From: Calliopum simillimum
Taxonomy: Eukaryota > Arthropoda > Insecta > Diptera > Lauxaniidae
Reading direction: 5' to 3'
Assembly: GCA_951812925.1 (NCBI GenBank)
Contig: OX638369.1
Coordinates: 27,360,533-27,424,532, forward strand
DNA length: 64,000 nucleotides
Every line of letters starts with the position of its first letter. Within the stretch, counting starts at the first letter, position 1. The notes under the pieces were generated by a model, which was given only the letters and a program-made list of their open reading frames with translations, was not told the DNA's origin and searched no databases. Below, in pieces: positions 11,960-41,640 of this stretch. The position numbers and the translations under genes were made by a program.

Positions 11960-14900
11960 CTACTCAACCAAAATAAAGCAGCAAGAACGAGTACTCCACA
12001 TCAACATTGAGTAAGAAAACAAAAAAAAATTCATGGGTATTGTAATTCCAAGAAATTTTTGAAATTATTTAAATATTGTGTTTGTTGTAGACAAAAACAA
12101 TTTTTCATGTATGTTATAATTCCGAGAAGTTTTGAAAATTATATAAATATTGTGTTTGTTTTAGATTAGAGTCAAAACAAAAACCATTTTTCATGGGAGT
12201 TGTAATCCCGAGAAGTTTGAAAAATATTGAAATATTTTGCTTGTCGTAGGCGAACCAAAATCGGCTCCCTTTTGTTCTACGCCGACACCCTTGCTCAAAT
12301 ACATAATCTACTGTAACAGGTGTGTACAACTTTCGACGACTATTTCGAGTGATTTTCGAAAAGCCACAGATATCATAGTGCTTCAGACAATATTTGAGTA
12401 TTCGATCATTGAATCATCTAGTCTAAAACTTACCTCCAGCTCATGTCCGTGAACACCAAGACTAAGTAAATCGTAGTCAATACGATTGCATGCCAACATT
12501 ATGCTGTACAATGGAAAGCATTTGACACGTGTATTAAACCATGATGTCTCCTCATCCAGCAGACTATTGATGCGCACATCAGCCTCTTCGTTATGTATGG
12601 TAACCTTTTTTTAACGAGAACAGAGAAAGAGATGAATTAAAAATAAAATTTCAAACGCTTGAAAATCACTCCTCACTCACCTCTTTGGTATGTTCATTTG
12701 GCGACACACATGCGTGCACCACCTGCATGTTATTGTAAAGCGCATTTTGTTTGCGCAGCGCAAAATACCTCTGTGGTTCTGGTTCAACTATGACACCCGC
12801 CCAGTTCAGTGTCCCCGCTAGCCATGGCGCTGTCATCATTTGGCCCATCACACCGGGCAGTGATTGTATGACGGCGCCATTTAATTTTCCACCCACTAAA
12901 TCGGCAACATAATGCGCCATCTCCGGCGTTAACTCATGATGTTCACTAAAGTTAAGATGCTGCTGGTGTTGCTGTTGCTCCGATGCATCGCGATTTTTAA
13001 ATAAATAATGCATAGGATATTTCTTCATGTGGATTTGACGTAGGAATGCAATGAGTTGTGGATCATCTTGCGTCACATTATTCAGTACATATTCTCTGGA
13101 CATATTTATGCGGAATTGTTGATGGCGGATTTCTGGCAAAGAGAGAGAGAGAGAAAAATAATATTAGAAAATTTATTACTTTTAGTATCCAACAATTAAA
13201 TTTGCATTTAAATCATGTTATATGTTGTAGTTTGGAGTTTGGCGCTAGGGGGGAGATAACAGCTCCATATGCATGGAACGGTAGAGTTACCTACTACTTA
13301 CTACGTTACAACTTCTTTTCTTGTTGTAATTGCTGTTGTTACCTCTATGCTTCGTTGACCATAGCAAACAACCATTTCATTTCTTGTTGTTGTTCCACAA
13401 AAACCAAATTAAAGCGGTTGAGCAGTACTATAAATTTGCATTTTATTTTTTTATTCCCCACTAGTTACAATGTAAGTGCTTGTGCTTATGGTATCTTATT
13501 GTATTTAGTGATTAACTTTTCTATAAGAGTCGTTTCTTGAGATCTCCTTTTTGGAAAATTATTAAAATACAAGTTGTTTTAAATCATAACAACTTTGCTG
13601 TTAAAAAGTCTTAAAATGGAAACATCAGAGAAGAGAGAAGTTGAATTACTTGAGTAAATTGAAGGAACAATTTTTTTGCTGGAAAGAATAGCGCCAAGAT
13701 GAACCGGTAAAACCACATTTTCGAAGTTTCAGCTCGTTTCTTTTTGACTACAGATTTGGTTTAAAAACTTGTAACCAGTAAATTGAAGATAATCGAGATG
13801 TCGTAAAATTTATTTGAGATTAAGCTTTTACCTCATGTTTTAAAAGTTTAAATAACACGGTTTTTCGCTCTGGTTTTTTAAGTTATATGTGTTTTTCCCC
13901 ATTAAACTTGATGTGATGATTAAAAAACTATTCTGTTCAAAACACACTTTGAAATATATGGATATATCCGAAAAATCATAATTTAAAATATATTAGTTTT
14001 TCCACACTGGAATTTTTTGATAATTTCAATCAAGAGTGTCAACGTTTAAAAATCACTGAGCCAAGCGCAGTTAGCGTAGGATTTTGGATCGTCCACAACA
14101 AACACAATATTTCAATATTTCCCAAATTTAGCGGAACTACAACACCCATGAAATTTATATATGGTCCAGTGAAATTGAACTTTTCGATCCAACATATAAA
14201 ATCCATAATTTTTTTTTTTTTTTTTAGTCGGACTATTTTGTAGTTTCAAAGAATGCACGAAAATTCGAGACCAATTTCACTGTCGTACAAAAAGTTATTC
14301 AGGCACAAAGGTCGAGAAAATTAGTATCTCGCTTACGCTTATTCCTACAAAAAAATGGTGCTCTACAATTTCATATCAAAAAGTGGAACAAATTGTTTTC
14401 GTACGACCCACAGTTTAGCGGATATCCTATTTTAAGGTATTTTCCGCATACAAGTGTTCATAGTAATATAAATGTTGAGTACTATAACTACGCCTACGTC
14501 ATAGAATCATGGCTGAATTTTTTTCTGGGTATTCTTCTAATAGGGAAAACTAACTTTTGTTTTAGTCAAACCGTCAGAGGTGGTGCCTTCGCGAGATATC
14601 GGGCATAGTTATAGTAATTTGAAAATCAACTTTCAAAAAACTGGTTTTCTCTTCTTTTTGCACCCGATATCTCGCGATGGCACCACCTCTCACGATTTAA
14701 CTAAAACAACACTTAGTATTCTCTATTAGAAAAATACCCACAAAATTCAGCCATGATACTATGACGCAGGCGTAGTTAGTTAGAGTACTTTGAAAATCCA
14801 CATTCATATTACTATATGGGTGATTCTCAGATAAATGTACTTTTTATGTCCTCTGGCGATTTCACCTATACACCTATGACGCTATAAGTTAGAAACTATG

Positions 14901-17900
14901 TTTTTCTAATGGAGCGGATCAATTTTACCACCAAATAATTATTGGTCTACTGTGAAAGTTTGCAAATATACCCCAAATGTCACAAACGTGGCATGTCCTA
15001 CCCCTACTTTTTATACATAAAACGATAAAAAACAAACAAAAAACGGAAATAGAACAAAAAACAAGTAACTACACATATTAAGTAAATACTTGTATGTATG
15101 TATGTATGTATGTATTCTCCTTTAACTCCTAGGAGGAGCATAGGGCCAATATGAAATCTCTCCATTTGTCACGATCCCTTGCGATGACTTTGATCTCTTG
15201 CCACGATTTTCCCGATTCTTGGATTTCCTTTTCCAACGACCTTTTCCAGTTGGTTTTGGGTCTACCACGTCCTCTACTGCCTTGTGGATTCCACTCAAGG
15301 GCCTGGCGACAAACTTCGCTGTGTGGTTTCCGGAGAGTGTGACCAATCCATCCCCATTTGCGCAGCTTGATCTCGTTTGCTATAGCCTTCTGTTTGCATT
15401 TTTGATGTAGCTCGGCATTTGATATAGTGCGAGGCCACCAAACCTTTAATATACGCCTTAAGCATTTGTTGACGAATACTTGCAGCTTGTTTGTTAGTTG
15501 TTCAGTAACAAGCCATGTTTCGCACCCATATAACAAAACCGATTTCACATTCGAATCAAAAATGCGCACTCTCGTTTTGGTGGATATAACGGATGAAGAC
15601 CATATTTTGTTCAGTTGAGCAAACGCGCCTTTTGCTTTTGCTATTCTTGAGTTGATATCCTCTTTTGCTCCACCATCCATGGAGATAATGCTGCCTAGAT
15701 ACGTGAAGCTATCGACGTTTCCGATGTCATCACTGCCAGCTTTAAACGTCATGTCATTGCTTGCGTTTAGCTTCATGCTTTTAGTCTTGGATACGTTGAT
15801 TTTTAGGCCGGCCTTTTGTGATTCCAAGACAAGGTCTTCAATTTTGCTTTGCATATCTGAATGTTTGGACGATAAGAGGCAGATGTCGTCAGCGTAGTCG
15901 AGATCTTCCAGATGTTCGGTAAAGTTCCATTGAATACCCCTTTTGGCCTTTTTAAGAGCTTTATCTAGGATATCATCAAGAACGATAAGGAAGAGTGATG
16001 GTGATAGTAAACACCCCTGTAAATACTTAAGGCTACAATATTCTGAGCTCATCTGCAGTTTTAAATAATTTTTAGAGGGCACGAATTCGAATTGAAAACT
16101 GTCCCCTAGTTTTGAAAAAAAAAAATTTCTTGAAAGCAATATGCTACTACTGCATGGTGCTACTGTTTCAGTCAATGGATTGCAATACATATGCATTAAT
16201 TCTGATCACTATCCATCACCCAAAGGTCATCATGTCCAGACCCGTCCAAAAAGAAATCTGTTTGCGTTTTATAGGGCAGTTTATAAACAAAAACAGTTTT
16301 TTTTTAAAATTATGGTCACAAACGTGGCACTCAGCATGAAACAATACTTTTGTAGGATTTGCAAGCATGACACCAAATTCTTTCGGAAAAATCTTGAACT
16401 CAAAAGCGTGCTTTACAATGAGCGATAAACTACAAAAATGTCACAAACGTGGCGCCTCAAAAATGTCACAAACGTGGCGCATCAAAAATGTCACAAACGT
16501 GGCACTTTTTATCAGTCTGCAAAAAAACATATTTCGATATAAAGTTTGAGTATACAGATGTTTAGTTGAAGGCTATTAATTATGTTTTAATGCAAAAATT
16601 TTTCTACACCATCAGAATCCTGAGTTATCCTTGCTCAAAAGTGAAAAAATCACAGTTTTGACATCAACTTAAAGCTATAGAACAAAAACAACAACAAGTA
16701 AAATTAATTTTCGTCAGTGGATTCAGACAGCCAAATTTATTGTCAACAAGACATAATTTACTGTTTTTCAATTGGATTTCCAGCTTCCGAGTAATAAGCT
16801 TTTAAAGTAAGGATATCTTTCGATAACATACAAAGGATTTTTCGAGACCGATCAAGTTTTATTATTTTTATTAATAACATATTTAATTAAAAAAATTTCG
16901 AGACCTTGCAGGCGATAATCGCATGAAAAATGACAGTTCTATGCTAGATTTAGTGAATGAGCCTGCTAAACTATTGCTTTGCAAATTAACACAAAATTTT
17001 ATCTGTTCATTCACTAAATCTACAATAGAGCCTTATTTTTTCATCCAATTTTAGTCTGCAAGGGCTTAAAACTTTCGTGATAAAATATATTTTTGATAAA
17101 ATTAATAAAACTTACCATTTTTGTTAAATTTTCGGTCCAGAAAATCCTTCGTGTGTTATTGAGAGGTATCCTTTTTTTAAAGTCTTATAATTCGGAAACT
17201 AGGAATCCAATTGAAAAACGGTAAATTATGTCTTGTTGATAATAAGTTCGGCTGTCTGAATCCATTAACAAAAATTAATTTTACTTGTTGCTGTTTTTGT
17301 TAAGTAGATGTCAAAACTGTGATTTTTTCACTTTTGAGCAAGAATAACTCAGGATACTGATGTAATAGAAAAAAATCACGATCAGATTCGTAATTAGGAG
17401 ATCCCAATCCACCATAAACGGCTATAAAAATAGAGGACAGGCAACCACAGTTGATCTTTAGGGCGGTAGGGTATAAAAAAATTAACCACTGGAGACATGA
17501 CACTGTTGCAAAATTGGTCTTGAAGTGTAAATTTGTCATTATATGCAATATATCTCGCATCAAAACGCTTCAAAATCATCATTTTTCCATACTGTGGCTA
17601 AAATGTCACAAACGTGGCAATTTGGTCACAAACGTGGCAGCAAAATTTCTTAATTTCGACGTCAAAGCCGTAAATTTACACTTGTAGTTGATCTACTCAA
17701 AAAGTGAGTTTTAAGAGTGTGTTTACACAAGATATCATGAAGAAACTTGCAAAAATCCAAAAAAAAAATATCTGCCAATTTTACAACTCGAAAAAGCACA
17801 GTTATCTAAGAATCACCCATATACACTTGTATGCGGAAAATACCTTAAAATAGGATATCTCCTAAACTGTGGGTCGTACGAAAACAATTTGCACCATTTT

Positions 17901-21100: not shown

Positions 21101-24100
21101 TTCCTACGAATTTACAAGGTTTTCGTGATATTTACAGGAATACTCAAATTAAGAAAATTTTCAAGATAAATTGTAGTACATATTTCGTTTTATTGCAATT
21201 TAAGACAAATTTACCCTTTTGTGTATATTTTCTGCAAAGCACAAGTCAATGAAAACACACGTCTAAGCGATAGGATAGATTGATAGGCCGCACACTGTAT
21301 ATTCGTATATATAAAAAGTCGACCTACTTTTTCAATACTCAATCCAAACGAAACACATTACATTTAACATGATTTTCTTATCATATCAGAATAATCTTCT
21401 GGTGGCAAATAGTAAAATAAAACAGAAAAGAAACTTTATGCTACTCAACTAATTATTATGACTTTGCTATGAAAGATTACACTCCAAAAAATATAGACTG
21501 GAAAACAATACTTAAAGTACACTACGTTTATACTTTTAATTTACTAATATTGAGCCCTAGCTACCAAAAAGACTTCGCAATTTCGGATTTTCATGTTTTG
21601 ATAGAAGTCCTGGAATTACAACACCCATGAAATTTATTTATTTATTTTTTTCCTCGGTTCAACTCCCGCCCAGGCCAAAAACACAAAAAGTTTTTCAACT
21701 TTGCAATTTTTCAATTATAATTAATTTAGTGAAATAAATATAATTATAATTACAATAAAAATAGTCTGATGAGTCTTTGTGGCGAAAGACGAAACATATG
21801 TCACTATAGCCGTGTTTTTAATCCGTTCCTTGATTTGTCATAATTATGTGTTAGAAAATGCATTGATAGATTTATATGTAAATCGATCTTTGCAAATATA
21901 TGACTAAAAAAGTTCAATTAAAAAATCAATTTTTTTCTTTTTTTTTATATATATATATAAGAATCGAACTCAAAGTTGATGTGAAATAGTGGATGTTGTT
22001 GTTTCATGTTGGTTGCGCAGAAAAAACAGCAAAAACAATTTTTCATGGAATGATAATGGCGAGAAATTTTTAAATATTGTGTTTGTTGTAGAAGAGAAAA
22101 AACAAACAACAAAAAACAATATTTCATGGGTGTTGTAGTTCCGAGAAATATGAAAAATATTGAAACATTTTGTTTGATGTAGGCTCAATTGGCTCAATTT
22201 TATTCTACGCTGACACCCCTGTGTTTAAGGGTCCAAGTCGCTGTTATGATCACAGGTCACTGATATCGGTCGCTATTGAATGATTGGAAAATTTATGACT
22301 TTATATCCCGTAAGCTATACAAGTCATATTGTTGAAATTAGGTAGGTACCGTATATAATTTACATTCGGTGCTACGCCCACTTTTTTAACGATTGAATGA
22401 TTAGACACACTTTAACACGCTGTATTTTGCAAACTATGCAAGCTATTTTATTGAAATTTGGTCATTCGATGGTAGAAAAGAAGGCACAATCAAAACAGCG
22501 TCACGCCCAATCTCGCAAACTATACTAGTTATTTTGATGAAACTAAGTGGGCAGGTGCCATAAACAATTAATGATCGCTGGTTAAAAATGGCTGCAATCA
22601 AGCCAAGATCAAGAACAAGAATAAGAATTTCTTTCTAATTTTTAGAAGAACTAACTGCAAAGGCAAAAATAGCTTAAAAATCTTCTCTGAGTGTATCCCA
22701 ACAAAAATCTCGTGTGAAACAAAAACAAAAACTCACGACTGATAAAATGACAGCAAAATCAATATTAAATATTGGAAACAAAAAAATAAAGAACACAATA
22801 GAATTTTAGTTTGAATAAAGTTGTACTGAAACTAATTAGGCGTTTGCATGTTATATCGAGGAAAAACAGGATGTAAGCAAACCCAACAATCGGATAAAAG
22901 TTGGTAAGGTCCTTGTCATGTCATAGAAAATCAAAAAAAAGCAGAAAAAAAACAAGTCAAACCGCCTTGGTGCTTTTTTTCTTACATAACTTATACAAGT
23001 ATTTATTATGAAATTTGTCGAGCGTTCCTTGAAGTTTGTTCGTTTGTCATGAATAATTAAGTATGAAATATTTGGCGGGTTTAATTTAAAGAACGAAAAC
23101 GAAAAAAATTCAAATTGCGGGGTTAAACAGTTTAAGAAATTAAATAAAAAATAACCACCCTAACAGACAAAAGTAACGGTCGAAAAAAACTTCAGCCCTA
23201 TGATTAAAAAGGGGTCATAACAACAACAGGCAGCAGCATTCTTTTGAGCAACCCTTCTTAACGACGAAAACAACGACGACACGTGGGCCAAAAATGTATG
23301 CACTTCAATCGAACGATCGAAGAAATCGCTTAACCACAATTAAATGTAGACATATTTTGCCCTTAAGAATTTCGTAAGTATGTACGTTGGATTATTAGAG
23401 GGTAAGAAAATAAAAAAACAAAAATTAATTGGAACGTGAAAACGCATATGATATAATAATGCTGTGACTGCCTATGGCATTTAATCAATACTTTTTCTTT
23501 AATTTCAATCAATAACCAGTTCCATTAAATTGTATGTATTTCTTTCTTTTTTGTTTTTTGACAAATGAGCCGTTTATTTTGCAAGTGCCTAGGTCCATTT
23601 CGGAGCAAAAGTAATGTCATAATATGAATTAGCTGGCATTTTGTTCAGAACGAATAAAATTGAATTCTGTCTTTACAGAAAATTTACCACATTGTGAGAA
23701 ATTGATGGCGTTATGTTTACAAAATAGTATCGGGCAAAAACCGATTATTACGGCACATAATGTGAATGACATTACTTTTGCCCCGAAATGGACTTAGGCC
23801 ACTTTCAAAATAAACGGCTCAAATAAATATTTAATAGATATTAGTAACTTTCGTAGGTGGAAAGAAAATTTAACAATTTCTGAAATACGATGTAAAAGAA
23901 AAATGGTAAATAACAGGGTTTTGCTAGGCATCCAAAAAAAAAACTCCCAAATTGGTTTAATGGTTCTCGAGTTATTAAGATTTTTTAATTCCCCGGACGT
24001 TGGCTAAGGAGTTTTGAAAAAAAAATGCCACCAAATTTCACCGCCGAGGGAATTTTTTGTAAAACTAATTATCATAAAATCTTACCAGGCAACATATCAA

Positions 24101-27100: not shown

Positions 27101-28891
27101 AAAAGTCGAAATTTTTCCAAATCCCCTGTTTGACCACTCCACAATTGAACAGAAAAACATGAAATGTATATTTTGTTAGGATTTTTCCAGACGAATCCAG
27201 TGGTACCATTTTTTTTTTGCGCTATGACATTATTTTCATTCATGAAAAACGAATTTTTGATTTTCATTATCAAAAAATATCACGAAATCGGGCGTAAATA
27301 TTTAGTCAACGACGGTTCTCAACGTCCGGAGGGTTTTTTTTTTTCGGTGTCCCCTAGTAAATTTATTTTAGAATATTTTTGGAAATTTTTTTGACCCATT
27401 ATAAACAAGTTTTTGAAAAAAGGGTCAAAAAGACCCTTAAAAACAGGATATAATGGGTTAAGATGTTCACATAACTTAATGTAAAATCAAGCATGGAACA
27501 ATATTATAGAACATCTTTACCCATTATAAACAAGTTTTTGGAAAAAGGGGTCGAAAAGACCCTTAAAAACGCGTTATAATGGGTTAAGATGTTCTAAAAT
27601 ATTGTTCCATGTTTGATTTTACATTAAGTTATGTGAACATCTTTACTCATTATATCGCGTTTTTAAGGGTCTTTTCGGCCCCTTTTTCCAAAAACTTGTT
27701 TATAATGGGTTAAGATGTTCTAAAATATTGTTCCATGCTTGATTTTACATAAAGTTATGTGAACATCTTTACCCATTATATCCTGTTTTTAAGGGTCTTT
27801 TTGACCCCTTTTTCAAAAACTTGTTTATAATGGGTTAAAAAAAATTCCAAAAATATTCTAAAAAAAATTTAATAGGGGCCACCGAAAAAAAAAACCCTCC
27901 GGATGTTGAGAACCGTCGTTGACTAAATATTTACGCCCGAATTCGTGATATTTTTTGATGATGAAAATCAAAAATTCGTTTTTCATGAATGAAAATAATG
28001 TCATAGCGCAAAAAAAATGGTACCACTGGATTCGTCTGGAAAAATCCTAACAAAATATTCATTTCATGTTTTTCTAAGATTTTTTCTGTTCAATTGTGGA
28101 GTGCTCAAACAGGGGATTTGGAAAAATTTCGACTTTTTTGAGCTGAAAAGTTCACTTAACGCCGAAAATGGACGTCTTATCAGAAAACTAATGATGCCAT
28201 TCGATTCTACGGGAAAAAATCCATAAGAATCCATGTCTTGGATTTCAGTTTTCGACCTACTACGAAGCTGAGAATTGATTCACTTCGGACCTATGAGAAT
28301 GCATTTTTAATCCACGTTTTTCAACCTTCAAAAATATATCGACACCCCTTCCCGTCATCTCTCAGAGCTAGGGTGGCGGCAATCTTCATGTCGATAGTTA
28401 AACTTTACAATTCTGCCGGTTGCGCGACAAATTTTAAACTTTCGTCCAAAACGCACCGGTCTAATGTTCATTTAACGTTAGTTTAGCATCAAAATGTATA
28501 CCAAGGTCTTTGACTGAATCGACACGACAGATTTGTTTATCATTTTATTTATAATTATACTCTACATTATTATTTTTTCTAGAAAAAGTCATTGTTTGGC
28601 ATTTATCAGAATTGAGATGTAAGCTATTTTTACAATACCAAATTTCAAAAGATTTCATGTGTTTATTCATTTTTAGAGCAATAAATTTGATAAATTACAT
28701 AAAAAATTTTCAATTACATATTTGCTTGAAGCATAAATGTACATTTTGTTATTATACCCTACACCCAGAGTATATTCACTTTGTCATTCCGTTTGTAACG
28801 CAGAGAAGGAGGCGTGGCAGATATGGAAAAGTATATATATTCTTGATCAGCGTCACCTCCTGAGTCGATATAGCCATGTCCGTCTGTCTGT

Positions 28892-37900: not shown

Positions 37901-40900
37901 TATACAGGAATCAAGAGGAGTGAAATTCCGCGAGTTTAAGTGTTCTGCCGGTTACATATAACTTTTGATTAATTTATAAATTAAGTACATATTAAGGGTT
38001 TTTTGAAGAAAAACAAAAGTTGAAAAATTTTGATTAATTCGAAAAATGTTGCTTAGTTCGAAGGATGTTGCAGAAGTCGAAAAATATGTACTACAAAAGA
38101 TGAAAAATGTTGCTAAAGTCGAAAAATGTGGCTAAGCCCGAAAAATATTGCAAAAGTCGGAAAAAAACTACAAAAGTTTGGTTACCTCGAAAATGTTGCT
38201 AAGGTCGAAGAATGTCGATGGAGTTAAAAAATGTTGTTAAGCCCGAATAATACATATTCCAAAAGTCGGAAAAAATCTGCAAAAGTTGAAAAATTTTGGT
38301 TAGTTCGAAAAATGTTGCTAAGCTCGAAAAATGTTGCAAGTCGAAAAATTCTACAAAAGTTGAAATGATGCAAAAGTCGAAAAAGTTGAAAAAAGTTGCT
38401 AAGCCTGAAAAATATTACAAAAGTCGGTAAAACACTACAAAATTTGAAAAATTTTGGTTGAGTTGAAAAATTTTACTAAGCCCGAAAACTGACGCAAAAG
38501 TCGAAAAATACCACAAAAGTTGAAAAATGTATCAAAAGTCAAAAAATTATACAAAAGTTGAAAAATGCTGCTAATCCCAAAAAATTTAGCAAAAGTCGAA
38601 AAAGTTGAAAAATATTGCAAAAGGTGAAAAATGTTGCAAAAGTTGAAGAATGTTGCTAAGCCTGAAAAATATTGCAAAAGTCGGAAAAAAAACTGCAAAA
38701 AGTTGAAAAATTTTGGTTAAATCATAAAATGTTGGAAAGGTCGAAGAATGTTGTTGAATTCAAAAAACGTTGCTAAGCCCGAAAAATGTTGCAAAAGTCG
38801 AAAAATTCGCCAAAAGTTAAAAAAGTTTTGTTAAGTCGAAAAATTATGCTAAGCTCGAAAAATGTTGCAAAAGTCGAAAAAGTTGAAAAATGTTGCAAAA
38901 GTAAAATAAATCTACAAAAGTTGAAAAAATTTTTTTAAGTCGAAAAATGATGCTAAGCTCGAAAAATGTTGCAGAAGTCGAAAAATACTCCAAAAGTTGA
39001 AAAATATTGCTAAAATCGAAAAATGCTGCCAAAATCGAAAAATGTTGCTAAGCCCGAAAAATATTGCAAGTCGGTAAAAAACTACTTAAGTTAGAAAATT
39101 TTGGTTGAGTCTAAGACCGTTGCAAAATTCGAAAATCAAAAGTTACAAAATTTTGGTTAAGTCGAAAAATGTTGCCAAAGTCCAAAATGTTTCCACGCCC
39201 CATTAATGTTGGAAAAGTCGAAAATTACTACACATGTTTCAAAATTTGGTTAAGACGAAAAATGTTGCAAAAGACAAAAATATTGCTTAAGTTGTAAATG
39301 TTGCTATTGTCGAAAATTATTCCTCAACGTTGATGTAGCGAAAAAAATTAATTCATCACTTTTCATCTTTAAACCAGTAACATCATCAAAATCAAAAATT
39401 TCATCACAAACATCATAAACACACTCTCATATGTCAAGTTGCTCAGACATTTGTCAATAAAAATTCAGTTTAAATTACAATAAACTGTTATGTACTGCCC
39501 CCAACTGACCAAAATGATAATCGAATATCACTAGCGCACCGTATGCTGTCAAGGTTTTGATGCAGTCTGGAATTTAAATTCACACTGCAGGTCAAAATGT
39601 GAAAACATGATATGATGATCTTATCAATATCGAACATCACAACAAAATCATATCATTTCTATTTTTTGGTGTCCAGTTATAATTTTTTTTTTTATTTCAT
39701 TTTGGTAAATTGATCGCCAAAGTGTGCCTTCCGCTATTAAGATCAACACAGCCTATTTCCTCTTAAGGTTCTTATTTTTTTAAGGGAAAATTTTCAAATG
39801 TTAAGGCAAACATGAGAGACATATGTGCAACGAAAGACAAACAGACGAGATATCAAATGAACTTCTTGTGCAGCACGTTGAAAAAATATCTCAGCTTAGG
39901 GGGTATGTTATTTCTGGAAAAAAATTGTTTTACTTAAGAGAGCGAAATAGCTTGGCAAATTTGGTAAAAAATAAAAATGATTCATATTCAGTGAACAGAC
40001 GCGGTGTTTTAACATTACATACTTAACTCGATTGTGGAAAAGGAAAGATTATTAAATCGGTTGAATCCCGTTGAAACTTGTATGTCATAATGAAAACCGT
40101 TTCCTAGTGGGTACTTATAATAAGCAATATATACAAAAATTTTGAAACTCACCTGTCGTATCCATATAAACAATTAATATGCTAAAGACTGTCGCAAACG
40201 ACAGTATGCAAAGGGCGATCGGTAATAGTTGACGATACGGTGAAGGACCCAGTCTCGGATCAAATTTCTGCAATTTCTTACATCCGGCAACATTATGATG
40301 ATTTGGATGGTGATGATGATGATGATGAGGATGGTGATTGTGTTGCTGTGTGTGATGTTGATGCTGCTGCTGATAATGGTGAGGATGTGACGACGACGTC
40401 GACGCCGCTGCCGATAATGTTGTTCCTCCGACTGCTGCTGCAGCAGCCTTCTGACAACAGTGATGCGATGATGCTGAAGTATTAACGAGTCTTGTTGGTG
40501 TGGAGAGTGGTGAAGATGTGGTGCTAGCTGATGGTGAGCTGCCAGCGCTGCTTATACCACTGCTGGCACCGCAGCTGCCGCCAACAATGCCACAGGAGGT
40601 TGAGGAGGCCGAGTGAGCAGCAGCATCACATATTGTCGTCGACGTTGTGGATGTTGCTATTGCCGTACAATTGTATTGCTGCTGCTGATGAGGATGATGG
40701 GGATGTTGAGTGTGACTGCAGCGCTGTGTGGAGGAGGTAACAGAACACGTGCATGTTATGTGCTGTTGCTGACTGTTGGATGATGTTCTACTAAAGCGAT
40801 GCTGCACATGATCAGTTTCATCAATGGAGGAGTTGACAATGTTAACAACATCATCATCGTCATCAAAACAACAATCGATATGTGTTGTGCTAACACTTAC

Positions 40901-41212
40901 ACAATCATCATCATCATCGACAACAACGTCATTAATAGCTGTCGCTGCTGCAGTCCGATCAGGAAGTGTAGGAAGGATGGTGACGGCGGCGGCATCTGTA
41001 TTTGTGGCGGATATTTTTGTTGCTAATTTTGTATTTAATTTGGTTGGACTGCTGCTACTCCCACTACTACCCGAAGAGGCGGCTGCGCTTTTATTACTGT
41101 TGGCAGCATTATGCCGCCTGTGATGACTTTGACTATTATTGTTGTTGGCTAATTCAGCGCGTTGCAGTTGCGCTGACGCTAAGGCAGGTTGTGCTGAATA
41201 CTCGGCTGTCAT
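11525..41212 (-). CDS. S: Star, type II membrane protein for EGF-ligand export (whole spliced CDS)
   Basis: Coding exons on the minus strand are 41212-40153, 13132-12681, 12604-12434 and 11737-11525. Joined they encode 631 residues; I recall Drosophila Star as about 600. Residues 1-328 are low complexity, rich in Ser, Thr, His, Gln and Asp, and cytoplasmic by family topology. One hydrophobic segment at 329-349 is followed by a luminal region of about 280 residues with an FkbM-like fold (Methyltransf_21). In Drosophila, Star escorts Spitz, Keren and Gurken precursors from the ER to compartments where Rhomboid proteases cut them, so it limits EGFR signalling. Seen: TM segment, [14 protein letters not shown] at 464-477 and [15 protein letters not shown] at 547-561. 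All introns are GT/AG and phases match. The chosen ATG at 41212 has an AAA context; the frame opens upstream only with a TTG. Identification rests on memory of the family, not on a search. Confidence 0.93.
11738..12433 (-). other. Star intron 3, enlarged by a palindromic repeat
   Basis: This is a 696-base intron with GTAAGT donor and TTTTCAG acceptor. About 480 bases (11811-12294) belong to the dispersed palindromic family described separately, so the ancestral intron would have been about 210 bases. A T-run of about 29 (11931-11959) sits inside the insert. Confidence 0.85.
11811..12294. mobile_element. Palindromic repeat family X, copy 1 (in Star intron 3)
   Basis: Ends are inverted (AAAGGTGACGACAGCGT and the complement of GCCGACACCCTT). 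Inside, ~60-70 bp modules repeat in both orientations: AAACACAATATTTAAATATT, TTTCTCGGAATTGCAACACCC, ATGATTTTT and the reverse-complement series at 12030, 12110 and 12190. The modules run inward on the left arm and outward on the right, so the whole folds back on itself. Confidence 0.75.
12434..12604 (-). CDS. S: Star exon 3: middle of FkbM-like domain
   Basis: This 171-base exon encodes 57 residues (505-561), from [19 protein letters not shown] to [15 protein letters not shown]. The acceptor AAAAAAAG lies only 76 bases below exon 2, so intron 2 (12605-12680) is a typical short fly intron. The donor is GAG|GTAAGT at 12433, phase 0. The last motif corresponds to the FkbM consensus that usually reads roughly KIDVEGxExE. 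Here Gly and His replace the usual Asp and Glu, which suggests, as inference, that Star is not an active methyltransferase. Confidence 0.93.
12681..13132 (-). CDS. S: Star exon 2: luminal stem and first half of FkbM-like domain
   Basis: The acceptor is TTTGCCAG after a CT-rich tract (13133-13153 reads GA-rich on the plus strand). The first two bases complete codon 354, giving [19 protein letters not shown]. Potential N-glycosylation sites NMS (363) and NVT (372) would face the lumen in a type II topology. A Gln/His insert near residue 405 is probably species-specific. The segment ending [18 protein letters not shown] matches the region of FkbM-type proteins where a strand ends in an acidic residue next to a conserved proline. 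The donor is GAG|GTGAGT at 12680, phase 0. Confidence 0.93.
13541..14029. other. Non-coding, nothing recognised
   Basis: Intronic sequence of Star without a visible repeat border. Confidence 0.5.
14033..14153 (+). mobile_element. Family X, copy 2 (truncated)
   Basis: It begins AGAGTGTCAACGTTTAAAAA with CACTGAGCCAAG as in copy 1, then GTAGGATTTTGG, CACAACAAACACAATATTTC and ACTACAACACCCATGAAATT. Only one half of the palindrome is present. Confidence 0.7.
14225..14810. mobile_element. Foldback element, left part
   Basis: 14476-14604 and 14663-14797 are inverted copies around a ~60 base centre (landmarks TACGCCTACGTCATAGAATC, GGTGGTGCC, CGAGATATCGGG and their complements). The part left of the hairpin (14355-14475, with TCGTACGACCCACAGTTTAG) is inverted again at 17825-17900. 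Confidence 0.75.
15094..15113 (+). repeat. (TGTA)n tail at the 3' end of the LINE
   Basis: Five tandem tetranucleotides (ATAC on the LINE strand) follow the LINE 3' UTR directly. Short-repeat tails instead of poly(A) are known for some non-LTR clades such as RTE and I. Confidence 0.7.
15115..16019 (-). pseudogene. 5'-truncated non-LTR retrotransposon, reverse-transcriptase C-terminal part
   Basis: Minus strand, open reading to a stop at 15129. Homology starts at [16 protein letters not shown] (about 16019), continues through the RT active-site motif YADDICLLS (YADD at 15885-15896), then [12 protein letters not shown], a thumb-like [28 protein letters not shown], and a C-terminal [17 protein letters not shown] and [13 protein letters not shown]. 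This is the 3' third of a LINE polyprotein; endonuclease and the N-terminal half of RT are missing, as expected from 5' truncation. The style resembles RTE-like or related clades; I cannot settle the clade. Only a few bases of 3' UTR follow before a tetranucleotide tail at 15094-15113. The frame is unbroken, so the insertion may be fairly young. It sits inside the TIR element at 14815-17821. Confidence 0.85.
16314..16504 (+). repeat. Cluster of GTCACAAACGTGGC motifs
   Basis: Identical 14-base words start at about 16315, 16440, 16465 and 16490, spaced 25 bases at the end. Other copies are at 14979, 17604 and 17625. All seven are in the same orientation although the host element is palindromic. 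Confidence 0.85.
16610..17355. repeat. Palindrome inside the TIR element
   Basis: The arm 16610-16850 is inverted at 17110-17355 (landmarks TGAAAAAATCACAGTTTTGAC, or its near-complement, and GACATAATTTACTGTTTTTC and AATTAATTTTCGTCAGTGGA). A smaller palindrome in the centre uses TAGATTTAGTGAATGA (16948-16963) and its complement at about 17009-17024. Confidence 0.8.
17825..18070. mobile_element. Foldback element, right part
   Basis: 17825-17905 is the inverse of 14395-14475 (TATGCGGAAAATACC, CTAAACTGTGGGTCGTACGA). 17955-18060 is a direct match to 14664-14770 (GATATCTTACGA, ACAACCTCTCA, AATACTCACAAAA). It is cut off from its left part by the TIR element. Confidence 0.7.
18128..18163 (+). repeat. 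Long T homopolymer
   Basis: More than 30 consecutive T. Length may be assembly-sensitive. Confidence 0.9.
18164..19544. other. Non-coding, nothing recognised
   Basis: AT-rich Star intron sequence without a clear element. Confidence 0.5.
19545..20105. mobile_element. 561 bp TIR element containing a tRNA-like sequence
   Basis: The ends ACACGCAAAAAAATGATCCG and the complement of CGGTTTAGTTTTTTCCGTGT, both continuing into TAAAAATT, form a ~28 bp imperfect TIR. Subterminal TTTACTG/CAGTAAA words repeat at 19975-20065. The isolated word ACACGGAAA also occurs at 36891, 47742 and 61575, perhaps relics of the same ends. Confidence 0.6.
19881..19955 (+). repeat. tRNA-like sequence (pseudo-tRNA or SINE head)
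   Basis: The A-box-like TAGCTCAGTAGATAGAGCG has a perfect GCTC/GAGC D-stem, and the B-box-like AAGTTCGATACC follows about 35 bases later. The acceptor and anticodon stems do not close well, so a functional tRNA gene is unlikely. A T-rich tract follows. Confidence 0.55.
20764..21062 (+). repeat. Two tandem ~150 bp units
   Basis: AATTGTGCAGCTAAGCAGAAG at 20765 recurs diverged at 20915, followed in both by ATTTACTTAAATATGTTGCG, TAGTTAAAACATTA and GGCTATTCCTTAAAACGTG (or a close variant). A local duplication of unknown origin. Confidence 0.8.
21645..21815 (+). mobile_element. SINE-like retroelement with hammerhead ribozyme
   Basis: A plus-strand B-box-like GGTTCAACTCCCG (21655-21667) is followed by an AT-rich body and then the hammerhead. 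The order and the 3' block match the element at 8935-9105. The A-box side is missing or truncated. A minus-strand B-box-like sequence (GAGTTCGATTC) lies downstream at about 21962-21974, echoing the inverted tRNA-like module of the other copy. Retroposition by a SINE or non-autonomous Penelope/retrozyme route is inference. Confidence 0.6.
21761..21807 (+). ncRNA. Hammerhead ribozyme, type I with minimal stem III
   Basis: Core CTGATGA is at 21766-21772. Stem II GTCTTT (21773-21778) pairs perfectly with AAAGAC (21785-21790) around loop GTGGCG and includes the conserved G10.1-C11.1 pair. GAAA follows at 21791-21794. The minimal stem III is ACATATGT with cleavage-site GTC ending at 21802. Stem I ATAGT (21761-21765) pairs perfectly with ACTAT (21803-21807). 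Predicted self-cleavage is 3' of C21802. Very short stem III is typical of hammerheads in Penelope-like elements and retrozymes, which usually need dimeric transcripts. Cleavage itself is predicted from structure and not shown here. Confidence 0.85.
22231..23570. other. Non-coding, nothing firm recognised
   Basis: 22240-22560 has internally similar lines about 85-110 bases apart (CTATACAAGTCATATTGTTGAAATT-like, then AAACTATGCAAGCTATTTTA), perhaps a decayed repeat of the Helentron-like class. The remainder is unremarkable. Confidence 0.4.
23576..23820. mobile_element. 245 bp MITE with ~50 bp inverted ends
   Basis: GAGCCGTTTATTTTG at the left matches the complement of CAAAATAAACGGCTC at the right. 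Pairing continues through CCTAGGTCCATTTCGG and CAAAAGTAATGTCAT with few mismatches. AAAT flanks both sides (23572-23575, 23821-23824). Confidence 0.8.
23930..24235 (+). repeat. Diverged ~170 bp tandem duplication
   Basis: GGTTCTCGAGTTATTAAGATTTTT (near 23962) recurs near 24133, each followed by a CGGACG word and a GAGGCAATTTTG/AAGGAGTTTTG line. Confidence 0.65.
24914..25333. mobile_element. hAT-like 420 bp MITE rich in GACCAAGA
   Basis: The TIRs TAGCGATAAGCAAA and the complement of TTTGCTTATCACTA differ at one position and fit the hAT start consensus YARNG. Flanking 8-base duplications CAGTGTAG (24906-24913 and 25334-25341) are perfect, the hAT length. Removing the insert restores the Helentron end CTGCAGTGTAGGGTA. 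Most of the interior is a (GATCAA/GACCAA)n array and its inverse. Confidence 0.85.
25180..25320 (+). repeat. (GAYCAA)n hexanucleotide array
   Basis: About 20 imperfect hexamers in tandem. The inverse word TCTTGGTC occurs at the left end (24930-24945 and further), so the element folds back. Confidence 0.85.
25377..26774. other. Non-coding, nothing recognised
   Basis: Star intron sequence. Short frames on both strands around 25540-25910 are unconvincing. 26380-26720 is rich in TATACAAATTTTATA-type words. Confidence 0.5.
26775..28463. mobile_element. 1.69 kb nested palindrome with 8 bp target duplication
   Basis: The termini TAGACCGGTGCGTTTTGGAC and its complement begin arms of about 600 bases or more that match nearly base for base (for example 27000-27360 against 27870-28240). 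The centre (27396-27840) is four copies of a unit starting ACCCATTATAAACAAG and ending TATAATGGGTTAAGATGTTC, two in each direction, and each unit is itself a hairpin. ATGTTCAT flanks both ends (26767-26774, 28464-28471). The mirrored 65-69 residue frames in the arms are not evidence of a gene. Confidence 0.9.
28752..29524 (+). mobile_element. Mini-me/Helentron-like element, copy B
   Basis: It begins TATACCCTACACCCAGAGTA, then TATATATTCTTGATCAGCGT, AGTCGATATAGCCATGTCC, a (TGGC)n tract (28888-28930), GGACACGCCTACCGCCCATA, and three ~136 bp subrepeats with GGGCGTGGCACCTC (about 29184, 29325, 29465). It ends GCTATGTAGGGTATTTAAT; the 3' stem-loop is absent. The 203-codon frame across it is a by-product. 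Confidence 0.8.
29798..29953 (-). other. Short frame with coding-like character, unassigned
   Basis: A minus-strand ATG at 29953 opens 51 codons to a TAA at 29798, beginning [20 protein letters not shown] and ending IIGFTRTG. Residue composition (charged, Trp, few homopolymers) is unlike the AT-driven frames nearby. The stretch [20 protein letters not shown] vaguely recalls the region before the RT domain in copia-like polyproteins. It directly abuts the dispersed repeat at 29980-30415. It may be a transposon relic or chance. Confidence 0.25.
29980..30415 (-). mobile_element. Dispersed ~430 bp repeat H, copy 1
   Basis: The complement of 54035-54440, about 80 percent alike in the best part: TAATTTTGGTACTTTTTGGA, AAAAGCTCATTTATCATCCC, TGTCTTGCGTATTAATATATAG. 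Unclassified, no coding capacity; could be a MITE or a solo LTR. Confidence 0.7.
30718..30790 (+). repeat. Three ~24 bp tandem units
   Basis: The words TTTTTGGTTTAGAA and GCTAAACG (or a variant) repeat three times. Confidence 0.8.
30791..32254. other. Non-coding, nothing recognised
   Basis: Star intron sequence, unremarkable apart from GTTCAGTTCAG-like words at 31267-31300. Confidence 0.5.
32255..32440 (+). repeat. Dispersed repeat R, copy 1
   Basis: Landmarks in order: AAATATCACTCATACG, TTTTAGGGCGGCCA and TAAGTTGCATCGGAACTGA. The same order occurs at 34215-34475 and 35625-35835. No coding. Confidence 0.6.
33205..34210. other. Non-coding, A/T homopolymers
   Basis: Contains T-runs at about 33399-33417 and an A-rich run at 33770-33830. 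Possible decayed repeat at 33835-34180, no partner found. Confidence 0.4.
34215..34475 (+). repeat. Dispersed repeat R, copy 2
   Basis: Contains TTATCACTCATACGACC, TTTAAGCGGCCATTA and CTAAGGCGCATCGGAGCTGAA in the family order. Another TACTCATAC word at 34488 suggests a partial further unit. Confidence 0.6.
34476..35624. other. Non-coding, nothing recognised
   Basis: Star intron sequence without clear features. Confidence 0.5.
35625..35835 (+). repeat. Dispersed repeat R, copy 3
   Basis: Contains AAATATCACTCATACGACC, TAAGGCGGCCATTAATAA and CTTACATCGGAGCTAAA. The plus-strand frame through it (from 35597) is probably a by-product. Confidence 0.6.
35836..38015. other. Non-coding, nothing recognised
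   Basis: Star intron sequence with CAACAG-rich low complexity (36120-36360) and a T-run (36690-36716). Confidence 0.5.
38020..39310 (+). repeat. 1.3 kb minisatellite, GTTGCTAAGYYCGAAAAAT type
   Basis: Dozens of imperfect short units mixing AAAAATGTTGCTAAG, CCCGAAAAATATTGC and AAAAGTCGAAAAA, giving a higher-order period of roughly 45-60 bases. The Phe-rich minus-strand frames (38435-38698, 38844-39032) come from the repeat and are not genes. Confidence 0.9.
39823..40026 (+). other. Unassigned 67-codon frame close to Star exon 1
   Basis: Plus strand, ATG to TAA, with mixed composition ([32 protein letters not shown]). It does not look like the repeat-driven frames around it but has no recognised family, and no splice partners could be chosen. 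It lies antisense within Star intron 1. Confidence 0.15.
40153..41212 (-). CDS. S: Star exon 1: cytoplasmic tail and transmembrane segment
   Basis: This exon encodes residues 1-353 plus one base of codon 354. It begins [17 protein letters not shown]. The tail holds acidic runs (DDDDD near residues 97 and 118), Ser/Ala-rich stretches and a His-rich block at about 289-306. A basic/proline linker ends in PSPYR, then comes the membrane span [20 protein letters not shown] and MDTT. The donor is CAG|GTGAGT on the minus strand at 40152, phase 1. The tail is encoded by CAG/CAC/CAT/GCN-rich triplet DNA, so its length probably varies between flies. The membrane span and the residues just after it are the part I recognise as Star; the tail alone would not identify the gene. 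Confidence 0.92.
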
Positions 41213-41640
41213 TTTAGACAATTTTCAAGTCTTCAATGGCTTATTCAAATAAAAAATCTTTTCAGTTTTGATAGAAAACTGCAAAAATTATTACGTGTGC
41301 ACATGTTGTTAGCTACCGTGACATTTTTAGCGCTGCTGAATTAGTTGAAACTGCGTTGAATACAGTTAATAATGCGCTGAATGCAGCAAACTGGTGTTAA
41401 ATTGGGGACGAGACGCTGAATTGTTCAGAAAGCAATCAGATGTTATAAAAAAATATGTTTATGCTTTCTACAGCGCTTTATGTAGTTCTGATGAGCGCTG
41501 AATAAGTCGAAATGGTGCTGAATCGTTTAAGTAGGCGCTGAATGCGTGCCAAAAAGTTATTTGCTGATTGCTGAGCTACCTAAACTATGCGCTGAATAGT
41601 ATTTGAGTAGCTGAATAAGCGCTGAATTGCTGAAATCAAA
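41213..41640 (-). promoter_or_regulatory. S: Presumed Star 5' leader with repeated GCTGAAT words
   Basis: This lies immediately upstream of the Star ATG. On the plus strand GCTGAAT occurs nine times between 41335 and 41627, six of them as CGCTGAAT (ATTCAGCG in the direction of Star transcription). Spacing is irregular, from 11 to about 80 bases. It may be untranslated leader, promoter-proximal DNA or a decayed minisatellite. No TATA or initiator could be chosen with confidence. Confidence 0.35.

Follow-up and report, generated by a model that had tools for sequence, protein, structure and literature searches.

Penelope elements and Terminons have been named as likely helpers of retrozymes, for which no conserved motif was known that would tell the helper (PMC7761336). 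Penelope-like elements are candidates because they co-occur with retrozymes and share type I hammerheads with them (PMC7761336). During Penelope insertion, both target strands are cut and extended, and the two start sites of the reverse transcriptase (RT) bound a tail of 30-40 nt (PMC11167929). The inserted copies have head-to-head arms and carry the tail on one of their two inverted ends; duplications of 8-10 bp and trans-mobilisation have also been described (PMC3846280). In an anole Penelope element, hammerhead mutants left insertion in vitro unchanged (PMC11167929). Among dipterans, type III hammerheads are in print for the housefly, Rhagoletis, Hermetia and D. pseudoobscura (PMC7936874).

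Here we describe a hammerhead-bearing repeat found in a 64-kb stretch of DNA, the whole of which is called the window. Our main reading, to which we assign a probability of about 0.7, is that the window sequence is a truncated non-LTR retrozyme: a non-coding element with a type I hammerhead that is copied in trans by Penelope-type machinery (RT plus GIY-YIG). The structure of its insertions in a fly is evidence on which enzymes copy animal retrozymes.

The hammerhead in the window

A descriptor scan of both strands of the 64-kb window returned exactly one complete hammerhead, at 21761-21807 on the plus strand (Table 1). A sequence-only reading had reported a near-perfect hammerhead here, and a letter check found every letter it described in its place. 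The motif is a complete type I hammerhead with an open stem I and a minimal stem III: it has the CUGANGA...GAAA core, an NUH cleavage site and three stems, of 5 bp (stem I), 6 bp (stem II) and 2-3 bp (stem III). Judged from the letters, stem I could be extended outwards by pairing between the T run in 21808-21819 and the A run that precedes ATAGT, and the GCC of the bulge in the same stretch could pair with the GGC of loop II.

Table 1. Features of the window copy of the repeat and of its hammerhead.
Feature	Position	Strand	Basis
Single 5'-truncated unit (unit 217-498) with its 3' end at the tailless site	21651-21933	+	BLASTN against fetched copies and 545-nt reference unit
B box GGTTCAACTCC of the tRNA-gene-like head	21656-21666	+	match to B-box consensus
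Two T5 runs (21691-21695, 21707-21711) between B box and hammerhead	21691-21711	+	sequence
Stem I, 5' strand, ATAGT	21761-21765	+	letter check
Hammerhead core, CTGATGA	21766-21772	+	letter check
Stem II, GTCTTT/AAAGAC	21773-21778/21785-21790	+	letter check
Stem II hexaloop, GTGGCG	21779-21784	+	letter check
Hammerhead core, GAAA	21791-21794	+	letter check
CATATG in the stem III region	21795-21800	+	letter check
T21801 and C21802, part of the GTC cleavage site	21801-21802	+	letter check
C17; predicted cleavage 3' of C21802	21802	+	position in hammerhead fold
Stem I, 3' strand, ACTAT	21803-21807	+	letter check
AGCCGTG bulge and TTTTT	21808-21819	+	deduced from sequence
3' body to the tailless 3' end (unit ~498); optional tail (unit 500-545) absent	21820-21933	+	BLASTN/end mapping

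We simulated 14,100 windows of 64 kb with a first-order Markov model and scanned both strands. This gave 719 hits with at least three pairs in stems I and II, 101 with at least four and 10 with at least five, which corresponds to a chance rate of about 7e-4 per window at the quality of the observed hammerhead. On this rate, together with the many-copy family described below, a chance origin of the motif was rejected.

The covariance-model hit to which the sequence-only reading had looked did not appear above threshold in the window or in L022, a locus with further copies. Zero Rfam families reached the gathering score in the 64-kb window, where the top match was Hammerhead_3 (22.7 bits vs a cut-off of 48.5); on L022, Hammerhead_1 scored 21.5 bits vs a cut-off of 34 in a full-length alignment (1-45 of 45). 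A genome-wide search with Hammerhead_1 gave 0 matches at E <= 0.001 among the best 73 of 75,100 candidates; as no control match appeared either, this search is uninformative. Exact hammerhead words occurred 0 times in viral contigs and 0 times in prokaryote genome contigs, collections outside which the host genome may lie. Folding energies of short stretches were not better than those of shuffles and competing folds were present, so that folding neither supports nor excludes the hammerhead.

The hammerhead probably lies antisense within an intron of Star, because Star exons on the minus strand flank it on both sides. The exon at 40115-41224 (minus strand) matches the protein Star in 51 proteins, the organism-named ones coming from hoverflies, Glossina, Rhagoletis and Drosophila, and 12666-13163 (minus strand) is presumably another Star exon. 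The window also contains a LINE-type reverse transcriptase fragment with RVT_1 and DUF6451 (15129-16205, minus strand) and two inverted repeats, at 27332-27897 (two 263-nt arms with 94% complementarity and a 40-nt gap) and at 16681-17301 (two 161-nt arms with 86% complementarity and a 299-nt gap).

A dispersed repeat family with an intact hammerhead

In the genome searched (690 Mb, 334 contigs), at least 41 sequences, including the window copy itself, matched the stretch 21645-21815 at 95-100% identity (best 40 of 2277 candidates scored), and the full unit had at least 122 matches (best 40 of 2128 candidates scored). These candidate numbers, 2277 and 2128, are first-look counts without scoring and were used as proxies for copy number. 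Because at least 41 copies are near-identical (95-100%), the hammerhead is not accidental. The copies that the sequence-only reading had expected from that query thus exist, and they bear out its claim of a short hammerhead-bearing retroelement family in a fly; the organism-named Star matches are all flies. For comparison, we used 41 loci from the top of the two DNA searches, a sample that is not random. The insertions are dispersed over contigs C1-C6.

A reference unit of 545 nt was taken from L022, in which seven hammerhead cores follow each other at a spacing of exactly 545 nt. It has an A box at 179 and a B box at 222, then an AT-rich spacer with T runs, the hammerhead at 327-373 with predicted cleavage after 368, and a 3' body to about 499, followed by an optional tail of about 45 nt to 545. 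Its GC content is 32%. Coding capacity was neither found nor expected in the 545-nt unit, which, unlike an autonomous Penelope-like element, has no ORF holding RT and GIY-YIG. The tail contains the hairpin TTAAGT-AACAC-ACTTAA, whose stability is not above that of shuffles (z -0.87). Folded as a circle, the majority unit beats 60 shuffles (z -6.2), a result compatible with circular RNA. The window copy is without the A box because it is truncated at its 5' side just before the B box, and other copies reach further 5'.

The full hammerhead is intact in 81 of 93 copies, with at least one intact copy at 37 of 40 loci. We compared the 93 hammerhead-bearing pieces (40 loci) with their majority sequence. 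The hammerhead diverges from it by 0.6%, the 3' body by 1.5%, the 5' body by 1.6%, the AT spacer by 2.0% and the tail by 2.7%. In the fetched loci, variation along the unit is greatest in the tRNA-like head (172-245), at 6.3%. With one copy per locus (n = 40), the hammerhead diverges by 0.59% vs 2.6% overall; 13 of 499 comparison windows diverge as little as the hammerhead or less, and the 12 of these that were listed all overlap it. Changes in the stems kept pairing in 0 cases and broke it in 4 for stem I (stem II, 6 and 2; stem III, 2 and 4). The compensatory stem changes for which the sequence-only reading had hoped did not emerge from these near-identical copies: they contain no double compensatory change and are too alike for covariation. 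Given this and the sub-threshold Rfam scores, the case for the hammerhead is built on the number of copies, on their intactness and on how the insertions are structured.

Upstream of the hammerhead, 76 of the 82 pieces that span both boxes retain the A box and 62 retain the B box; the consensus of the Pol III B box is GGTTCRANYCC. These boxes suggest transcription by Pol III. T5 runs are possible Pol III stops, and one lies between the B box and the hammerhead in 81 of the 82 pieces, which counts against a Pol III transcript reaching the hammerhead. ARAGORN found no tRNA in the window and none in 17 loci, and the Rfam matches to L022:1400-2600 include no tRNA family. The suggestion of a possibly tRNA-headed element therefore holds for tRNA-gene-like boxes upstream of the hammerhead; it does not extend to a tRNA recognised by ARAGORN, and the window copy is missing the A box.

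Insertion structure and the Penelope families of the same genome

Units occur singly or in tandem and also head to head. We grouped the matches into 45 clusters, of which two (L025) probably form a single array interrupted by other DNA, two from L041 have no hammerhead in them and one (L023) adjoins a masked stretch. In 29 of the 45 clusters, element 3' ends lie at both outer edges in opposite orientation, that is, head to head, and the remaining 16 are without this two-3'-end structure. The 3' ends cluster near unit positions 490-510 and 540-545. We classed them as short (485-515), long (at least 535) or other, with limits set after inspection of the data. Of the 29 end pairs, 20 are short/long, 6 are long/other, 2 are other/other and 1 is short/short, and no pair is long/long, so that one tailless end is paired with one tailed end in 20 of 29 and 9 are otherwise. 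Permutation predicts a mean of 5.7 long/long pairs and none was observed (P = 5e-5), while 20 short/long pairs were reached in 0 of 20,000 permutations.

The two flanks of a cluster share a word of at least 10 bases in 20 of the 45 clusters vs 25 of 1980 mismatched pairs of flanks, where the shared word may take in up to 6 bases of the element edge. The shared words in these 20 of 45 insertions are target-site duplications. In each of the 20 clusters, one duplication pair encloses the whole structure with its tandem and inverted parts, as after a single event. The insertion in L038 starts exactly after the predicted cleavage site.

Within an insertion, the pieces mostly go back to the same source sequence. 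At 45 informative positions, defined as having two bases each present in at least four insertions and scored with pieces below 100 nt excluded, different insertions differ by 24.8%, pieces of the same insertion on the same strand by 1.0% (27/2735) and pieces of the same insertion on opposite strands by 3.7% (37/1005, of which 14 come from one pair of pieces in L039). Overall divergence within an insertion is 1.05% on the same strand and 2.2% on opposite strands, and it has a mean of 4.4% between insertions. A nearest-neighbour test was unsupportive of single-source insertions (3/24), because young insertions are nearly identical across loci. A shared source is compatible with a single circular RNA, with a single homogeneous multimer and with one master source at a time.

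Penelope elements of the same genome provide an internal yardstick for the retrozyme ends. Reading frames with RVT_1 and GIY-YIG were found in L052 (841 aa), L053 (673 aa) and L055 (554 aa). DNA searches with the terminal regions of L052, with the best 40 of 107 and the best 40 of 172 candidates scored, gave 50 clusters; among the candidates scored, two 3' ends fall within the queries in 11 clusters and all 11 of these are short/long, in a census that misses arms without the queried region. The short and long 3' sites of this family lie about 30-40 nt apart. In the insertion of L052 itself, one arm is inverted and stops within the ORF; this insertion is not short/long and is not among the 11 scored. 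With 20/29 and 11/11 short/long pairs, respectively, the repeat and the L052 family have the same end pairing. For Penelope elements this pairing is not new, because two start sites and extension of both strands have been published (PMC11167929). Its occurrence in an ORF-less hammerhead repeat appears to be new, as we found no published case in the open-licence literature.

BLASTN of a dimer of the unit against the fetched Penelope loci (L042-L055) gave nothing significant (best E 0.17), which makes it less likely that the repeat is derived from a known Penelope family and leaves copying by a Penelope enzyme unaffected. The descriptor scan found no complete hammerhead in L042-L055, and an Rfam search of L052, L053 and L055 that admitted E values up to 2 found no hammerhead either. 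In two unrelated-looking Penelope families, CTGATGATGAG...CTCGAAA occurs 3' of the ORF (L052:4209-4238 and L055:3285-3313). This stretch resembles a hammerhead core, with a short stem II but no clear stem III, and neither the descriptor nor Rfam calls it. A Penelope-type RT fragment (L041:2-286, tblastn E 2.7e-14) lies about 0.8 kb from the retrozyme array that starts at L041:1111, which may be a coincidence. GIY-YIG domains are also present in frames of 612 aa and 622 aa on the small contigs C183 and C104 (L043 and L044), with scores unlike those of the Penelope copies; we guess that these frames are perhaps bacterial.

Copying models and known systems

In the cycle that we propose, a genomic copy, in which A and B boxes are present, would be transcribed, and the hammerhead would cut every unit to give 545-nt RNAs that would then be ligated into circles. 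A Penelope-type enzyme would make staggered cuts in both target strands and start copying at the two sites flanking the tail, usually at one site per target strand, which would leave the end pattern and target-site duplications observed. Copying round the circle would give tandem units, and two cDNAs would meet head to head, the structure found in insertions whose pieces share a source. In the 93 pieces counted, copies span the cleavage site; a self-cleaved linear monomer is therefore not the usual template, as copying from either start would reach its 5' end within about 130-180 nt and stop there. Either a circle or an uncleaved transcript could act as the template. The template is probably a circular RNA, and whether a hammerhead circle is the real template becomes a directly testable question in flies.

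If the same element and enzyme instead used an uncleaved multimeric array transcript, the hammerhead would have no role in copying. This model stays alive because the hammerhead of the anole Penelope element is dispensable for insertion in vitro (PMC11167929); in addition, the arrays are homogeneous, so that an array transcript would also yield near-identical units, and one master source at a time would match the informative-site result. However, the hammerhead is among the least diverged windows of the unit and, if active, would cut multimers, and we consider this model unlikely. We hold it similarly doubtful that the repeat is a classical tRNA-derived SINE, transcribed by Pol III from its A and B boxes and copied by a LINE, with an incidental hammerhead. 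Such a SINE would account for the boxes (76/82 and 62/82 pieces) and for a short, non-coding, dispersed element with target-site duplications, but not for the 29 of 45 insertions that have a 3' end at each outer edge or for two discrete 3' end sites like those of the Penelope family of the same genome; the T5 run in 81/82 pieces, a possible Pol III stop before the hammerhead, and the absence of ARAGORN tRNAs from the window and the 17 loci also speak against it. The earlier label of a SINE-like element thus stands as far as a short retroelement is meant, but 545-nt units in tandem and head to head with Penelope-type ends go beyond a SINE and better fit non-LTR retrozymes.

The tandem and inverted arrangement would be explained if the repeat were an ordinary satellite or other tandem repeat that spread by recombination and carries a relic hammerhead. 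A plain satellite was rejected because dispersed insertions, on C1-C6, have target-site duplications; an end rule common to the RT-coding family L052 and a motif intact in 81/93 copies also disagree with it, and we regard this origin as very improbable.

Beyond the reading of the window sequence as a truncated non-LTR retrozyme, we put forward tentatively, at somewhat less than even odds, that animal retrozymes are SINEs of Penelope elements, which use a hammerhead-made circle on which two Penelope RT subunits start at the tail-flanking sites, one per cut strand. If true, a single event would produce tandem units together with head-to-head arms and would pair a tailed with a tailless end, the fly family would be the first insertion record of two-start copying on one circle, and the tRNA-gene-like boxes might give this family its own promoter.

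Several described systems share parts of this organisation. By description, the nearest SINE-like analogue is SMalpha of schistosomes, whose promoter is of the Pol III type; the references for the SINE-like elements SMalpha/Sjalpha are Ferbeyre (1998) and Laha (2000). Both these elements and the fly repeat are short SINE-like retroelements with a type I hammerhead, but the schistosome element is 335 bp long (PMC8490949) vs 545 nt here, and the likeness is one of description. The dipteran type III hammerheads are likewise located in fly genomes; they resemble those of HDV-like agents (PMC7936874), whereas that of the window is of type I and sits in a retroelement. The sequence-only reading was not aware of a described dipteran example; hammerheads as such are in print for dipterans, whereas for dipteran type I retrozymes we found no published case in the open-licence literature.

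With Penelope-like elements (PMC11167929, PMC3846280 and L052), the repeat shares head-to-head arms, partial tandems, 5' truncation, an optional tail on one of two inverted ends and target-site duplications, and its hammerhead likewise lies upstream of the RT start sites (PMC11167929). It differs in lacking an ORF, in showing no BLASTN similarity to the fetched Penelope loci and in its fuller hammerhead, which has a stem III.

The repeat works like the metazoan non-LTR retrozymes and is filed with them, with reservations about unit size and the circle. Its unit of 545 nt compares with about 150-450 nt in theirs, and the filing is kept because the latter is a reported range and not a mechanism (PMC7229834). 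Retrozymes seem promoterless and have no known motif that tells the helper (PMC7761336), whereas the repeat has A and B boxes and Penelope-type ends; the circles of the repeat, unlike theirs, are putative. Like the retrozymes of coral, mussel and axolotl, the fly repeat is non-coding and low in GC with a type I hammerhead, carries one hammerhead per tandem unit, ranges from single unit to multimer, is strongly self-paired as a circle and is flanked by target-site duplications of more than 4 bp (PMC7229834).
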